NCBI GenBank assembly: GCA_903902705.1 | Contig: CAIUVX010000094.1 | Span: forward strand, 1-64,000 | DNA length: 64,000 nucleotides | Reading direction: 5' to 3' | Origin: an uncultured Methylococcales bacterium | Lineage (GTDB): Bacteria > Pseudomonadota > Gammaproteobacteria > Methylococcales > Methylomonadaceae | Shown here: positions 54,922 through 62,268 of the stretch, piece after piece | How positions within the stretch are numbered: position 1 is the first letter of the stretch | Layout of the letters: every line of letters begins with the position of its first letter | Program-made: the position numbers and the translations under genes | Notes under the pieces: generated by a model | What the model was told of the DNA's origin: nothing | What the model saw: the letters and a program-made list of their open reading frames with translations, nothing else | The model's database searches: none

Positions 54922-55563
54922 ATGGCAAGACCGTTAATACAAATGGCATTAGATTCATTGGATTTCGACGCAACAGTAAACCTTGCTACCTTAGTAGCAC
55001 CTCATGTTGACATTTTCGAAATCGGAACTCCTTGTATCAAACACAACGGCGTTAACTTAGTTAAAGAACTAAGAGCAAGATTCCCAAACCACCTTTTGTT
55101 AGTTGACTTAAAAACAATGGATGCGGGCGAGTATGAAGCAACACCTTTCTACGCAGCGGGTGCTGATATTTGTACCGTTTTGGGCGTATCTGGTCTTGCG
55201 ACTTGTGTAGGCGTTATTAAAGCTGCCAACGCACACGGTGCAGAAGCTCAAATTGACTTGATTAACGTTGAAGATAAAGTAGCTTGTGCGCGTGCAACTG
55301 TTGAAGCTGGTGCTCAAATTATGGGTATTCACACAGGTCTGGACGCACAAGCGGCTGGTCACACTCCTTTTGCTGACTTAAATGCGATTGCTGCATTAGG
55401 TTTACCTGTTAGAATTTCAGTTGCTGGCGGCATCAAAGCATCAACTGTTCAAGACGTAGTCAGAGCAGGCGCAAACATTATCGTTGTGGGTGCAGCAATT
55501 TATGGTGCAGCTTCTCCTGCTGACGCAGCGCGTGAAATTCGCGAATTGGTTGACGCTGTATAG
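54922..55563 (+). CDS. hxlA: 3-hexulose-6-phosphate synthase
   Basis: A 213-residue enzyme (Hps) that condenses formaldehyde with ribulose 5-phosphate to give 3-hexulose 6-phosphate, the first step of the RuMP cycle. It belongs to the OMP-decarboxylase suprafamily. Motifs: M-A-L-D-S-L-D near the start, E-I-G-T-P-C-I-K, the D-L-K-T-M-D-A-G catalytic block (Asp-Lys-Asp), G-I-H-T-G-L-D and V-A-G-G-I-K plus I-I-V-V-G-A-A-I for phosphate binding. Length is typical. It opens the operon behind a strong promoter and is followed by hxlB after 11 bases. Confidence 0.97.
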   Translation: MARPLIQMALDSLDFDATVNLATLVAPHVDIFEIGTPCIKHNGVNLVKELRARFPNHLLLVDLKTMDAGEYEATPFYAAGADICTVLGVSGLATCVGVIKAANAHGAEAQIDLINVEDKVACARATVEAGAQIMGIHTGLDAQAAGHTPFADLNAIAALGLPVRISVAGGIKASTVQDVVRAGANIIVVGAAIYGAASPADAAREIRELVDAV

Positions 55564-55574
55564 AGGCAGAAACC

Positions 55575-56108
55575 ATGCATCAGCAACTTATCTTAGATAA
55601 AATCACAAGTATTTTAACGGCTACCGATGATTCTTATGATGAAAAGCTAGTTGAAATGCTTGATAAAGCCAAGCGTATTTTTATCGCAGGTGCTGGGCGT
55701 TCCAAGTTAGTTGGCAACTTTTTTGCTATGCGATTAGTACATGGCGGTTACGATGTCAGCGTAGTTGGCGAAATTGTAACGCCGAGTATTAAAGCAGGTG
55801 ATTTATTGATCATTATCTCAGGTTCTGGAGAAACTGAGCAATTGATAGCGTTCACTAAAAATGCTAAAAAAATCGGTGCTAACATCGTGTTAATCTCTGC
55901 GAAAGCCAGTTCAACTATTGGTGATATGGCCGATGGTGTTTTCCAAATTGGACAACAAGAACTGTATGGTAAAGTTGTGGGAATGCCGATGGGGACTGTG
56001 TTTGAACTGTCCACGCTGTGCTTTTTGGAAGCCTTAATCTCACACATAATATGGGAAAAAGGAATTCCTGAAGAAATAATGAGAGAAAGACACGCTAACT
56101 TAGAGTAA
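55575..56108 (+). CDS. hxlB: 6-phospho-3-hexuloisomerase
   Basis: A 177-residue SIS-domain isomerase (Phi) that converts 3-hexulose 6-phosphate to fructose 6-phosphate, the second RuMP step. G-A-G-R-S at residue 40, V-G-E-I-V-T-P-S, I-S-G-S-G-E-T-E and the M-G-T-V-F-E-L-S segment with the active-site Glu are as in the family. It directly follows hxlA. A hairpin (cgagtgg 56120-56126, ccactcg 56133-56139) lies just after its stop and may stabilise or partly terminate the hxlAB message. Confidence 0.97.
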   Translation: MHQQLILDKITSILTATDDSYDEKLVEMLDKAKRIFIAGAGRSKLVGNFFAMRLVHGGYDVSVVGEIVTPSIKAGDLLIIISGSGETEQLIAFTKNAKKIGANIVLISAKASSTIGDMADGVFQIGQQELYGKVVGMPMGTVFELSTLCFLEALISHIIWEKGIPEEIMRERHANLE

Positions 56109-56239: not shown

Positions 56240-58234
56240 ATGACTTTGCGCCGAGAACTAGCGAACGCCATACGCGCTTTAAGCATGGATGCAGTACAGA
56301 AAGCAAACTCAGGACACCCAGGCGCGCCTATGGGTATGGCGGACATCGCCGAAGTCCTGTGGAACGACTACATGAGACACAACCCAACTAACCCAAAATG
56401 GTCAAATCGTGATCGGTTTGTGTTGTCCAATGGTCATGGTTCAATGTTGATTTATTCATTATTGCACCTGACAGGTTATGATCTTTCTATCGAAGATTTA
56501 AAACAATTTCGCCAACTGCATTCCAGAACCGCTGGGCATCCTGAATACGGTTACGCACCTGGTGTAGAAACGACTACAGGACCTTTAGGTCAAGGCATTA
56601 CCAATGCAGTCGGCATGGCAATCGCTGAAAAAGCATTAGCTGCGCAATTCAACAGAGATGGACATAAAATTGTTGATCATCACACCTATGTATTCTTAGG
56701 TGATGGTTGCTTAATGGAAGGTATCTCTCATGAAGCCTGTTCATTAGCTGGCACATTAGGACTAGGAAATCTGGTTGCATTCTGGGATGACAACGGTATT
56801 TCTATTGATGGTCACGTTGACGGCTGGTTTACTGATAATACCCCGCAACGATTTGAAGCCTATGGCTGGCACGTTATTGCTGACGTTGATGGTCATGATC
56901 CTGTTGCCATCTCTAAAGCTGTAAAAATGGCGAAAGCCATGACTGATCAGCCTACTATGATTTGCTGCAAAACTACTATTGGTTTTGGTTCACCGAACAA
57001 AGCAGGCTCTCATGCTTGTCATGGTGCGGCTTTAGGTCAAGACGAAATTAACTTAACTAAAGCGGCATTAGGCTGGGATCACGAAGCGTTCATCGTTCCA
57101 GAAAATGTATATGCAGGTTGGGATGCTAAAGCAAAAGGTGCTAAAGCAGAAGCAGAATGGAATGAAAAATTCGCAGCTTATCAAGCAGCACATCCTGAAT
57201 TAGCGGCTGAATACGAACGTCGTATGGCGGGTGATTTGCCTGCAACATGGGCAGCCGATGCTGACGCATTTGTAGCAGCAGTCAATGCAGAAGCAAAAAC
57301 CACTGCAACTCGCTTGTCATCATTAGCAGCTATTGAAGGGTTCGCGAACTTACTACCAGAAATTTTTGGTGGTTCTGCTGACTTAGGTTGTTCTAATATG
57401 ACCGAGTGGAAAGGTTATAAGCCAATGCGTGCTGATAAACCTGATGCCAACTACATCAATTATGGTGTGCGTGAATTTGGTATGTCTGCCATCATGAACG
57501 GCTTGGCTCTGCATGGCGGTGTAATTCCATTTGGTGCAACTTTCTTGATGTTCTCAGAGTATGCGCGTAATGCGTTACGCATGGCATCATTGATGAAAAT
57601 TCGTTCAATTTTCGTTTATACCCATGATTCTATCGGTCTAGGCGAAGATGGTCCAACTCATCAACCTGTTGAGCAAACGGCTACCTTGCGTTTAATTCCA
57701 GGTATGCAAGTGTGGAGACCCTGTGATGCGGTAGAAACAACTGTTTCTTGGAAAGCAGCGATTGAACGTCAAGACGGTCCTTCTGTGTTAGTTTTCTCAC
57801 GTCAAAATCTGCCACATGTACCACGCACAGAAGCGCAAATTGCAGCGATTTATCGTGGTGGCTATGTGTTGAAAGACACTGATGGTCAAGCTGATGCGAT
57901 TATCATTGCGACAGGTTCTGAAGTTGAATTGGCATTAAAAGCAGCAGATGAACTCGCGGCAAAAGGCAAAAAAATCCGTGTTGTTTCTATGCCTTCTACC
58001 AATATTTTTGATGCACAAGATGCAGCTTACCGCGAATCTGTATTGCCAGCGGCTGTCACACAGCGTGTAGCAGTAGAAGCAGGTGTAACTGATCTGTGGT
58101 GGAAATATGTTGGCACCAACGGCAAAATCGTAGGTCTTGATCGTTTTGGCGAATCAGCACCTGCACCCGCACTGTTCAAAGAGTTCGGCTTCACCGTTGA
58201 GAATGTAGTCAAAAACGTAGAAGCGGTACTTTAA
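56240..58234 (+). CDS. tkt: Transketolase
   Basis: A 664-residue thiamine-diphosphate enzyme that moves two-carbon units between sugar phosphates and regenerates ribulose 5-phosphate for the RuMP cycle. Motifs: [18 protein letters not shown], the G-D-G-C-L-M-E-G cofactor-binding motif, D-D-N-G-I-S-I-D, then the C-terminal domains with [14 protein letters not shown] and the closing domain. aggag precedes the ATG. It lies between hxlB and the repeat-protein genes on the same strand. Confidence 0.97.
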
Positions 58235-58349: not shown

Positions 58350-59060
58350 GTGAACAAGAATAATTTGACGAAAGGTCTATTTACAGCGTTGCTGCTAGTC
58401 AGCAGCGTGGTAAGTGCAGACGAAAAATACCCAGCAGCAGACTTCCAGCCTTCGGTTGTTTATCAAAGCGATGCCGTTAAAAATGGCTCATCAACTCAAA
58501 CAGCAGTTAAAGCGGCAGCACCAGTGACTGCTCAGGCAAGTCACGAAGTAGATTCAAAATATCCAGCAGCTGATTTCCAGCCTAAGGTTCTTTATACTGA
58601 TGATAAGTATCAGCACAATAAAGCATTGCCAGCAAGTGCATCTAAAAATGTAAGCGTCTCTTCCGTCACAGAAGAAGCTACAGTTGAAAGCACAGTCAGT
58701 GTTGAGAAAAAGAAAGAAGACTCCAGTGTGACTTACTTACTTGGTTTAGTTGGTTTAGGCGCGGTAGGTTTTTTCTTATTCAGAAAACAAACAACTCCTG
58801 CACCTACTAAAGCTAAAACAGCCAGTATTGCTCCTGCAAGTAGCAAAACTGCTGCAACAACAGGTGTTGGTAAATATATCAACAAAGTGTCTGGCACAGG
58901 CGTTTCTCGCTATGTAGATCAACAAGTTAAAACTGAAAAATCAGCCACTGGTGTTGCTAAATATGTTGCACAACAAACATTAGCTGAGAAAGCAAGAGCC
59001 GCAGAAGAAGCAGAAAAAAAAGCGACAGGCGTTGAAAAATATATGCGTAATCGGGGGTAA
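58350..59060 (+). CDS. Membrane-anchored GVxKY-repeat protein of the RuMP operon
   Basis: A 236-residue protein with no family I know. Residues 1-23 are a signal peptide (cleavage after V-S-A). The exported part has two copies of K-Y-P-A-A-D-F-Q-P (26-34, 70-78), each followed by a V-x-Y strand. Residues 127-145 are a membrane helix followed by R-K, so the C-terminal tail should face the cytoplasm. That tail holds four G-V-x-[KR]-Y motifs (172-176, 184-188, 201-205, 227-231) in Ala/Thr/Lys-rich, probably disordered sequence. The next gene encodes a soluble protein made of the same motif. The GTG start has aggtga upstream; the longer frame from 58281 is unsupported. I infer that it ties a cytoplasmic assembly to the inner membrane. 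Confidence 0.75.
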   Translation: MNKNNLTKGLFTALLLVSSVVSADEKYPAADFQPSVVYQSDAVKNGSSTQTAVKAAAPVTAQASHEVDSKYPAADFQPKVLYTDDKYQHNKALPASASKNVSVSSVTEEATVESTVSVEKKKEDSSVTYLLGLVGLGAVGFFLFRKQTTPAPTKAKTASIAPASSKTAATTGVGKYINKVSGTGVSRYVDQQVKTEKSATGVAKYVAQQTLAEKARAAEEAEKKATGVEKYMRNRG

Positions 59061-59063
59061 ACA

Positions 59064-60014
59064 ATGAGCCAGAATTCCTTGAACAGTTCATTTTTATCTG
59101 CTGTTGCAGCGTTTTTTTCGTTTGGAACTGAAGCAAAATCTCAAACAGAGAGTATGTATCGCGTTTGTGCGGGTGACCCCGACGGACTTAGTGGCGTAGA
59201 AAAATATCTGCAAAGCCAAGAAGCGTTGTTAGCAAGACAAAAGGCTGAGCAATTGGAAAAACTGGCAGCCCAAGCCGCAGCTATTGCAGCTCAAGCATCA
59301 GCTAGTGGTGTTGCGAAGTATCTTGCAGAGCAACCAACGCTGACCAGCGTGGAGCGTTACGCACTTAGACAAGCGATTGCTGACAAACAAGCACAGAAAG
59401 ATAACCCAGCAACTAGCGTGGGTGGAGTAACAGGTGTTGATAAGTACTTGAAAGGGTTGAAATCAGCACCTGTATTAAGTGGCGTTGAAAAATACTTAAG
59501 ACATCAAGACAGCTTACCCCAACCTAGTAAAGTTGCTAAATACATGGCAAAACAAGCTCTGATGGCTAAGCAAGGTAAATCAGGATCAGCGATTGTCCAG
59601 ATTGAAGCAACAGGTGTCGCTAGATACTTACAGCATCAAGCCAGTTTACCGCAGCCAACTAAAGTTGCCAGATATATGGCAAAGCAATCTGCTTTAGCGG
59701 CATTGCAAGTTAAGTCTATAGTTGTTGAAGTGCAACCAACGGGTGTTGCCAAATATTTACAGCATCAAGACAGTCTACCGCAGCCAAGTCGAGTCGCTAA
59801 ATATATGGCAAGACAGGCTTTATTAGATGCGCAACAGGCAAAGCCAATCTCTGTGAAACGTAGTGACACAGGTGTTGATAAATATGTGAAACATCAAGAC
59901 GAGTTACCACAACCTAGTCGCGTAGCCAAGTATTTAGCAAGACAGGCATTAGCAGAACAACAAAAAGTAGACGCTGAGACTAGCGTTGAAAGATATATGC
60001 GTCATCAAGGTTGA
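59064..60014 (+). CDS. Soluble GVxKY-repeat protein of the RuMP operon
   Basis: A 316-residue, Ala/Gln/Lys-rich protein. It carries 13 copies of [GSKR]-V-[AED]-[KR]-Y, at residues 44, 82, 95, 124, 140, 156, 184, 200, 227, 243, 270, 286 and 307. From residue 140 the motifs form four tandem modules of 43-44 residues: G-V-x-[KR]-Y-[LV]-x-H-Q, L-P-Q-P-[ST], [KR]-V-A-[KR]-Y-[ML]-A-[KR]-Q, then a variable spacer. No catalytic domain, signal peptide or clear membrane helix is present, although residues 10-20 are hydrophobic. It starts three bases after the stop of the anchored partner and is followed by transaldolase. Evenly spaced identical short motifs are what is seen in multivalent scaffolds such as CsoS2 or EPYC1. 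A scaffold for RuMP enzymes is my inference. Confidence 0.75.
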   Translation: MSQNSLNSSFLSAVAAFFSFGTEAKSQTESMYRVCAGDPDGLSGVEKYLQSQEALLARQKAEQLEKLAAQAAAIAAQASASGVAKYLAEQPTLTSVERYALRQAIADKQAQKDNPATSVGGVTGVDKYLKGLKSAPVLSGVEKYLRHQDSLPQPSKVAKYMAKQALMAKQGKSGSAIVQIEATGVARYLQHQASLPQPTKVARYMAKQSALAALQVKSIVVEVQPTGVAKYLQHQDSLPQPSRVAKYMARQALLDAQQAKPISVKRSDTGVDKYVKHQDELPQPSRVAKYLARQALAEQQKVDAETSVERYMRHQG

Positions 60015-60108: not shown

Positions 60109-61095
60109 ATGGCGCAAAACTTACTTGAACAACTGAAAGCAATGACTGTTGTTGTCGCTGACACAGGCGATATTGAAGCGATCGAAAAATTTACACCGCG
60201 TGATGCGACTACTAATCCATCACTGATTACCGCAGCATCACAAATGCCGCAATACCAAGCAATTGTTGACGATACCTTAAAAGCGGCGCGAGCAACTTTA
60301 GGCGCGGCGGCATCAGCTGCTGACGTAGTTTCTTTAGCTTTTGATCGTTTAGCTGTTTCTTTCGGCTTAAAAATTCTGGAAATTATTCCAGGTCGTGTAT
60401 CAACTGAAGTTGATGCAAGATTATCATTCGACACTGATGCAACTATTGCTAAAGGTCGTGATTTAATTGCTCAATACGAAGCGGCTGGCGTTGCTCGTGA
60501 CCGTGTATTAATCAAAATTGCAGCAACGTGGGAAGGTATCCAAGCGGCAGCGGTTTTAGAAAAAGAAGGCATCCACTGCAACCTGACATTATTGTTCGGC
60601 TTGCACCAAGCGGTTGCTTGTGCTGAAAACGGCATCACATTGATTTCTCCTTTCGTTGGTCGTATTTTAGACTGGTACAAAAAAGACACAGGTCGTGATT
60701 CTTACGCCCCTGCTGAAGATCCAGGTGTAGTATCAGTCACCGAAATTTATAACTACTACAAAAAATTTGGTTACAACACCGAAGTAATGGGTGCTAGCTT
60801 CCGCAATGTTGGTGAGATCACCGAATTAGCAGGTAGTGATTTATTGACTATCGCACCTTCTTTGCTAGCTGAGTTACAAGCGACTGAAGGTGAATTACCA
60901 CGTCGTTTAGACCCAGCAAACGCTGCTACGCTAGAAATTGAAAAATTATCAATCGACAAAGCCACTTTTGATAGTATGCACGCGGTAAACCGTATGGCAA
61001 CTGATAAATTAGCTGAAGGTATTGATGGTTTTTCTAAAGCATTGGTATCACTAGAAGAATTACTTGCTGATCGTTTAGCTAGCTTAGAAGCTTAA
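60109..61095 (+). CDS. tal: Transaldolase
   Basis: A 328-residue class I aldolase-type transaldolase (TalB group). It moves a dihydroxyacetone unit between sedoheptulose 7-phosphate or fructose 6-phosphate and acceptors in the regenerating part of the RuMP cycle. The Schiff-base lysine is in [22 protein letters not shown] lies near residue 30, and N-L-T-L-L-F-G and F-V-G-R-I-L-D-W also match. The ATG at 60109 has aaagg upstream. The reading frame extends to 60064, but the extra residues are not typical of the family. Confidence 0.96.
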
Positions 61096-61188: not shown

Positions 61189-62268
61189 ATGTCACAAAAA
61201 ATTTCAGATGTCGTTAAAGCGGGTGTTGTTACTGGCGAAGACGTAAAAAAACTCTTTGCTATTTGCAAAGCCAACCAATTTGCTTTACCTGCGGTTAATG
61301 TTATTAACACTGATTCGATTAACGCAGTATTAGAAGCAGCAGCAAAAGTTAAATCAGCAGTTGTTATTCAGTTCTCTAATGGCGGTGCTGCTTTTTTCTC
61401 AGGCAAAGGTTTAAAACTGGAAGGTCAACAAAACGCAATTTTGGGGGCAATTTCTGGGGCGCAACACGTTCATTTAATGGCAGAACATTATGGCGTACCT
61501 GTCATAGTACACACTGACCATGCAGCAAAAAAATTATTGCCTTGGATTGATGGCTTGTTAGATGCAGGTGAAAAACATTTTGCGGCTACTGGCAAACCTT
61601 TATTCAGTTCACATATGCTGGATTTATCAGAAGAAAGTCTGCAAGAAAACATTGAAATCTGCGCCAGCTATTTAGAACGTATGTCAAAAATGGGCATGAC
61701 CTTAGAAATTGAATTAGGTTGCACAGGCGGCGAAGAAGATGGTGTCGATAACAGCGGCATGGACCATTCAGCACTGTACACTCAACCTGAAGACGTGGCT
61801 TATGCTTATGAAGTCTTGAGTAAAATCAGTGACCGTTTCACCATAGCGGCTTCTTTCGGTAATGTACACGGTGTGTATTCACCTGGTAATGTCAAATTGA
61901 CACCAACCATTTTGGCAAATTCACAAAAATTCGTTTCTGAAAAATTCGGCGTAGCACACAACACTTTAGACTTCGTATTCCACGGTGGTTCAGGTTCTAC
62001 ACCCGAAGAAATCAAAGAATCTATCAGCTATGGCGTGGTGAAAATGAACATTGATACTGATACCCAATGGGCGACTTGGGAAGGTATCATGAATTTTTAC
62101 AAGAAAAATGAAGGCTATTTGCAAGGTCAAATCGGCAACCCAGACGGTGCAGATAAACCTAACAAAAAATACTATGACCCTCGCGTTTGGCAACGTGAAG
62201 GCGAAGTCGGTATGGTGAATCGCTTGGTGCAAGCTTTCCAAGATTTAAACGCAGTTAATTCGCTATAA
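61189..62268 (+). CDS. fbaA: Class II fructose-bisphosphate aldolase
   Basis: A 359-residue zinc-dependent aldolase of the FbaA type, which splits fructose 1,6-bisphosphate to triose phosphates (the EMP branch of the RuMP cycle). Metal and catalytic residues: H-T-D-H-A-A-K-K near residue 105, L-E-I-E-L-G, G-N-V-H-G-V-Y and H-G-G-S-G-S, with N-I-D-T-D-T-Q-W near residue 286. It is last in the RuMP operon and is followed 15 bases later by a strong terminator. Confidence 0.96.
   Translation: MSQKISDVVKAGVVTGEDVKKLFAICKANQFALPAVNVINTDSINAVLEAAAKVKSAVVIQFSNGGAAFFSGKGLKLEGQQNAILGAISGAQHVHLMAEHYGVPVIVHTDHAAKKLLPWIDGLLDAGEKHFAATGKPLFSSHMLDLSEESLQENIEICASYLERMSKMGMTLEIELGCTGGEEDGVDNSGMDHSALYTQPEDVAYAYEVLSKISDRFTIAASFGNVHGVYSPGNVKLTPTILANSQKFVSEKFGVAHNTLDFVFHGGSGSTPEEIKESISYGVVKMNIDTDTQWATWEGIMNFYKKNEGYLQGQIGNPDGADKPNKKYYDPRVWQREGEVGMVNRLVQAFQDLNAVNSL

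Follow-up and report, generated by a model that had tools for sequence, protein, structure and literature searches.

Multivalent disordered proteins serve as enzyme scaffolds in carbon fixation, and the closest described systems to the proteins reported here are EPYC1, the algal Rubisco linker, and CsoS2, the scaffold of the alpha-carboxysome. EPYC1 is disordered, bears evenly spaced, repeated, helix-forming motifs, is tied to a carbon-fixing enzyme and clusters it by valency. CsoS2 is a multivalent, disordered bacterial protein with more than one class of motif, encoded beside the enzyme presumed to be its client. Type I methanotrophs hold free formaldehyde low although it is produced across the membrane from 3-hexulose-6-phosphate synthase (Hps); how they do so is an open question, and the same formaldehyde step also limits synthetic methylotrophy. 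PMC8879981 cites, as its reference 103, an enzyme assembly engineered for methanol utilisation without a scaffold (Price et al. 2016). It resembles the arrangement proposed below for two proteins, A and B, in the idea of placing the enzyme that makes formaldehyde next to Hps so that flux rises, and differs in that it crosses no membrane, whereas A and B are a natural candidate. The engineered assembly was reportedly man-made and placed in a heterologous host.

Protein B shares with EPYC1 the disorder, the even spacing of repeated helix-forming motifs and the tie to a carbon-fixing enzyme, and it may likewise act by clustering through valency. Unlike EPYC1, A and B are bacterial, concern formaldehyde rather than CO2 and comprise a transmembrane partner with the same motif; no sequence relation to EPYC1 was found. 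With CsoS2, A and B have in common that they are multivalent, disordered and bacterial, show more than one class of motif and are encoded beside a presumed client enzyme. In contrast to CsoS2, the membrane would separate the two motif classes of A, and no shell protein genes were seen in the operon. Membership of A or B in the EPYC1 or CsoS2 families was rejected on sequence, and any kinship would thus lie, by analogy, in the way of working. A survey of the literature on RuMP metabolons, scaffolds, particulate Hps and M. capsulatus found nothing on A, B or a third protein, C, introduced below; the three are real and conserved, and apparently undescribed. Ferenci is said to have reported particulate Hps in M. 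capsulatus in 1974, to which we give no weight as evidence.

Two repeat proteins are encoded within a RuMP operon

The window, by which we mean the whole 64,000-nucleotide stretch of Methylococcales DNA that was analysed, contains an operon with the gene order hps-phi-tkt-A-B-tal-fba, all on the forward strand. The hps gene (hxlA, 54922..55563) was assigned from PDB relatives of its product (3ajx and 3f4w, E ≤ 1e-42), and the operon further comprises phi (hxlB, 55575..56108), coding for 6-phospho-3-hexuloisomerase, tkt (56240..58234), coding for transketolase, tal (60109..61095), coding for transaldolase, and fba (61189..62268), coding for fructose-bisphosphate aldolase. A previous, sequence-only reading of this DNA had described two adjacent genes between tkt and tal, and both are present and intact: A (58350..59060) codes for 236 residues from a GTG start, a start codon that many of its orthologues also use, and B (59064..60014), which begins 3 bp downstream of the stop codon of A, codes for 316 residues.

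That reading had also seen no catalytic domain in either product, and searches of Pfam, NCBIfam and the PDB agree. Neither A nor B is covered by a family in Pfam or NCBIfam, the matches apart from DUF6292 being partial or sub-threshold, and no solved relative of either protein was found in the PDB. DUF6292 (PF19809) scored 30.5 against B, above its cut-off of 27.1, but its best stretch takes in only profile positions 57-87 (31 of 88) and no single stretch passed E 0.1 in a separate domain search; this assignment was rejected. The match of A to PEP-CTERM (PF07589) remained below the curated cut-off (15.2 versus 20.7 bits). A resembles this family in having a transmembrane (TM) helix followed by basic residues, hence the weak match, but its helix lies in the middle of the protein and a long conserved tail follows it.

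Protein A is predicted to expose two repeated motifs on opposite sides of the membrane

Protein A had been described as membrane-anchored, in keeping with the single TM helix predicted at residues 127-143 (58728..58778). Two further elements, which the earlier description had not included, precede this helix. The first is a signal peptide (residues 1-23, 58350..58418, ending ...SSVVSA, with the cleavage site judged by eye), the hydrophobic core of which is present in 31 of 32 orthologues. The second is a pair of YPAADFxPxVxY repeats, YPAADFQPSVVY (58428..58463) and YPAADFQPKVLY (58560..58595), both backed by orthologue comparison and a DNA pattern; residues Y27, P28, A29 and P34 of the first are invariant across 32 orthologues. 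Behind the helix, the C-terminal side of which is basic, comes a tail with four copies of TGVx[KR]Y (V173, V185, V202 and V228; 58860..59042), for which orthologues, shuffled sequences and selection all provide evidence.

The order of these parts is well kept. All YPA motifs are N-terminal to the TM helix in 32 of 32 orthologues and all VxKY motifs are C-terminal to it in 31 of 32. Mean counts of flanking K+R residues in the same 32 proteins are 1.2 before the helix and 3.9 after it, and those of D+E residues 3.5 and 0.75, respectively. Motif order around the helix, together with the positive-inside distribution of charges, predicts that the YPA part is periplasmic and the GVxKY part cytosolic, which would place the two repeated motifs on opposite sides of the membrane.

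A conserved, evenly spaced motif is repeated in B

V-x-[KR]-Y occurs four times in A and 13 times in B, whereas 20,000 shuffles of each protein at the same composition gave a mean of about 0.15 copies and a maximum of 3 for A and 4 for B. The five-residue motif GVx[KR]Y, once thought common to both proteins, describes all four copies in A, but a strict G is found in only 7 of the 13 copies in B, which read [TS]xVx[KR]Y with K, R or S in place of G in the remainder. The 938 motifs of 111 related proteins share the consensus [TS]-[GS]-V-x-[KR]-Y-[LVMI]-x-x-Q, in which position -2 is T or S in 97% of cases and V is present in 99%; their modal spacing is 20 residues, and chains carry 5 to 19 copies in B and 2 to 5 in A. 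The four tandem modules of 43-44 residues ascribed to B are likewise present (GVxKYLxHQxSLPQPSxVAKYMAxQA..., at V141, V185, V228 and V271; 59478..59978), and whole modules are missing from its relatives at L036, L037, L038 and L042.

B has no TM segment, as expected of the soluble protein that it had been taken for, and its short hydrophobic N-terminus is also present in its relatives. AlphaFold2, run for B with 11 relatives, predicted no fold (pLDDT 54.6, pTM 0.17), in line with a disordered chain, and placed the beginning of a short helix at 12 of the 13 motifs, which matches the expectation for an N-capped docking helix. Both intrinsic disorder, in the AlphaFold2 prediction, and evenly spaced short motifs, in the set of 938, are thus found, as would be looked for in a scaffold.

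In comparisons among close relatives, differences at motif positions amount to 5.3% for B and 1.2% for A, and at YPA positions to 2.7%, against 20.6% (B) and 30.4% (A) at non-motif positions, so that change at motif residues is 4-25 times rarer than in the linkers. The dN/dS ratio ranges from 0.09 to 0.19 in B and from 0.14 to 0.34 in A, if one very close A pair is set aside whose value of 0.72 has few changes behind it. Conserved motif residues and low dN/dS, combined with gain and loss of whole modules, make up the pattern expected of a valency-driven scaffold. Taken alone, the gain and loss of tandem modules would also suit functionless low-complexity or repeat-expansion debris, but such an origin is scarcely credible for sequences that are kept across families with dN/dS mostly of 0.1-0.3 and nearly invariant motif residues. 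We also considered a regulator of RuMP flux resembling CP12, in which the motif would inhibit or activate an enzyme depending on the cell's state and no cluster would form. Small disordered proteins with a tightly conserved motif, encoded in an enzyme operon, would fit this role; however, up to 19 copies per chain and the turnover of modules point to valency rather than switching, and cysteine pairs of the CP12 kind are absent, making this explanation highly improbable.

hps is the constant neighbour of the motif genes

The nearest named matches are from Crenothrix sp. D3, Methylobacter and other Methylococcales. Relatives of B were found in 128 of the 151 genomes of the family, which we take to be Methylomonadaceae, and matches to the A profile in 264 of the 301 genomes of the order. 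In a class-wide sample of 369 genomes, which took in neither Methylophilaceae nor RuMP bacteria of other classes, the motif profile was detected in six and a close Hps in exactly those six (Fisher p = 3e-13, nominal and not corrected for relatedness); since the six genomes span three families and share ancestry, this value overstates their independence. A search of plasmids with B returned no match, and all plasmid relatives of Hps are below 60% identity.

In at least three families, and in differing gene orders, repeat proteins accompany hps; the refuting condition named in the earlier reading, a lack of conservation with RuMP genes in related genomes, clearly does not hold. Variants of the order include hps-phi-tkt-B-hps-phi-tkt-A-tal-fba, hps-phi-B-hps-phi-tkt-A and hps-B-hps-phi-tkt-A, as well as hps-B alone (L079), hps-phi-B without tkt (L056, L069) and A-hps-phi (seven Methylococcaceae-like loci). 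At six further loci (L066, L067, L070, L071, L074, L077) a second RuMP operon reads hps-tkt-C-B, without phi. A second hps, very highly expressed, has been reported in Methylomonas sp. DH-1 (PMC6373157). The distant family f4, which is likely Methylophagaceae and lacks pmoA, has the order hps-Rep-tal-hps-phi, where Rep is a soluble repeat protein of 97-187 residues. A repeat-profile match was obtained in 54 of 57 f4 genomes, and hps lies at most 1.5 kb away at all 30 f4 loci examined, among which a simple scan found the repeat protein in 29 and tal in 28.

Only hps is present in every intact RuMP-linked motif locus; an apparent exception in G431 was removed once a short reading frame resembling A, with two copies of the motif, was recognised between tkt and tal. 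Each motif-bearing genome examined in full has at least one copy within an hps operon. The genetic link to an enzyme that a scaffold should show is therefore found with hps at loci in at least three families, with unlinked extra copies besides. Phi, Tkt, Tal and Fba were rejected as the constant partner, each being missing from some motif loci, and the retention of hps while phi, tkt, tal and fba each drop out favours Hps. Of the two partners initially suggested, Hps is favoured by every intact RuMP-linked locus, but Phi is not, being absent from the hps-tkt-C-B and hps-B loci. In 53 Hps sequences taken from loci with the motif, positions 107, 108, 142 and 191 are invariant or almost so, and in 10 sequences from loci without it these positions mostly differ. 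The comparison, which separates the two groups in part, is confounded by relatedness and may provide a weak lead to residues linked to the presence of the motif.

Identical stretches of the RuMP locus were observed in genomes of two families (L214:5814-6248 in G424 and L215:6050-6484 in G437). One of the two assemblies is probably contaminated, and for this reason the strong A1 match of G437 was left out of the f175 count.

Motif proteins unlinked to hps and the case for a scaffold

In f4, the ChpA-type chemosensory kinase of the Pil-Chp system has T-[GS]-V-x-[KR]-Y-[IL] three to six times in an inter-domain linker; these copies were seen in seven f4 genomes examined (L230:5745-11852, L273-L278). 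Some genomes of families f2 and f174 have further motif proteins unlinked to hps (L208, L279, L281, L282, L283), and the extra copies outside hps loci include those of some Methylococcaceae-like genomes. In one of these proteins, a B-like one from f174 (L283:7442-8272), the C-terminus includes a cysteine/histidine stretch, which may form a small domain that binds zinc. The motif was not found in some hps-bearing genomes, namely those of f175 and G442, G448 and G457.

ChpA is not an obvious client of Hps. Its motif copies and those in the hps-unlinked proteins imply that the receptor may not be Hps, or that an Hps assembly has further clients. In the former case, the motif would bind another hub, such as a RuMP-specific organiser of the pole or the membrane, with A, B and ChpA as clients or cross-linkers and with a RuMP linkage that reflects co-expression and placement instead of direct Hps binding. 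The repeats in ChpA and the unlinked proteins of f2 and f174 are what such a hub would lead one to expect. We nevertheless judge it unlikely, as the motif profile in the class sample is restricted to genomes with Hps, no motif-bearing genome examined in full is without a copy in its hps operon, and FimV/HubP hubs are far more widespread in Gammaproteobacteria.

Observed at these loci are the motif, the order of parts, conservation, purifying selection, linkage to hps and phyletic co-occurrence with hps. We consider it moderately probable that A and B constitute a disordered, multivalent RuMP scaffold for Hps that A tethers to the membrane. The interpretation first suggested from the sequence is supported in part: a scaffold would accommodate the disorder, the even spacing, the membrane anchor and the tie to formaldehyde fixation, whereas ChpA and the unlinked copies leave room for a receptor other than Hps. 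Most likely, the short T/S-capped helix of [TS]-[GS]-V-x-[KR]-Y-[LVMI]-x-x-Q would dock on Hps or on an assembly that contains it. Through its 5 to 19 copies, B would cross-link many Hps into a cluster, which A, whose 2 to 5 copies follow its one TM helix, would tie to the inner or intracytoplasmic membrane. Formaldehyde could then be caught where it enters the cytosol and its path shortened. If the scaffold is real, formaldehyde fixation would join, after Rubisco, the short list of carbon fixation organised by disordered linkers, and a natural part for engineering RuMP flux would be at hand. For a multivalent set encoded with Hps, one member of which is predicted to span the membrane, the loci already put names to the genes, define a motif and point to residues that can be probed.

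The YPA motif, protein C and methanotrophy

The second conserved motif, YPAxxFxPxVxY, is common to A and to a small exported protein, C, of about 90 residues. C contains YPA repeats only, its chain usually ends at a YPA motif, and in the genome of the window it is encoded away from the operon. A DNA pattern for YPAxxFxPxV was present in 21 of the 21 family genomes tested, with a control near 0, and its matches lie in A and C, plus a few chance-like ones. C is often encoded directly after an operon for an NMT1-type ABC transporter, and its usual neighbour is an ABC transporter rather than methanol dehydrogenase genes. In genus g12 it sits between tkt and B, inside the hps operon, thereby tying the YPA and GVxKY motif systems together.

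Families f172 and f175 have YPA-TM proteins whose cytosolic tail is a different one and lacks GVxKY; in f172 pmoA is present and hps was not detected. Three such A-like proteins, each of which combines a TM helix with two YPA motifs, are encoded at L216:7223-7867, L218:7031-7654 and L153:1004-1648. No YPA motif was found in three f4 genomes that have the cytosolic repeat protein and lack pmoA, and among the genomes tested only likely methanotrophs of the order have the motif. No pmoA was found in the assembly to which the window belongs, which we put down to its incompleteness. Since YPA-TM proteins occur without GVxKY in f172 and f175, and GVxKY occurs without YPA in pmoA-less RuMP genomes, the simplest reading is a modular one, in which YPA tracks methanotrophy and GVxKY tracks Hps, with A as the bridge between them.

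A protein with repeats on both sides of a membrane, and a YPA motif confined, in the genomes tested, to probable methanotrophs, which build intracytoplasmic membranes, could also indicate a structural role in these membranes for A, B and C, with YPA linking them on the lumen side, GVxKY self-associating on the cytosolic side and the RuMP operon being merely a convenient expression unit. This is improbable in view of f4, in which such membranes are not expected and which nonetheless keeps its soluble repeat protein between hps and tal.

To return to the scaffold, the YPAxxFxPxVxY motifs of A and C would most likely bind a methanotroph-specific periplasmic partner, for which the methanol-oxidising side is the obvious candidate. 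It is possible, if rather doubtful, that A links periplasmic methanol oxidation, together with C, to clusters of Hps formed with B, as a transmembrane metabolon in which a two-sided disordered linker would hand formaldehyde from producer to fixer across the membrane. We know of no two-sided linear-motif device for a toxic intermediate, and the system would be categorically new only if this two-sided arrangement were proven.

An exported SRPBCC protein of G086 (Pfam Polyketide_cyc2; L131:8353-9135) carries two YPA motifs as a C-terminal tail, and a paralogue at 5420-6091 of L131 is without the tail; we take the SRPBCC superfamily to include MxaD of methanol oxidation. Forms of C with two or three copies of YPAxxFxPKVIY are encoded at G000:C105:51841-52113 (L085, L136) and at L118-L135.
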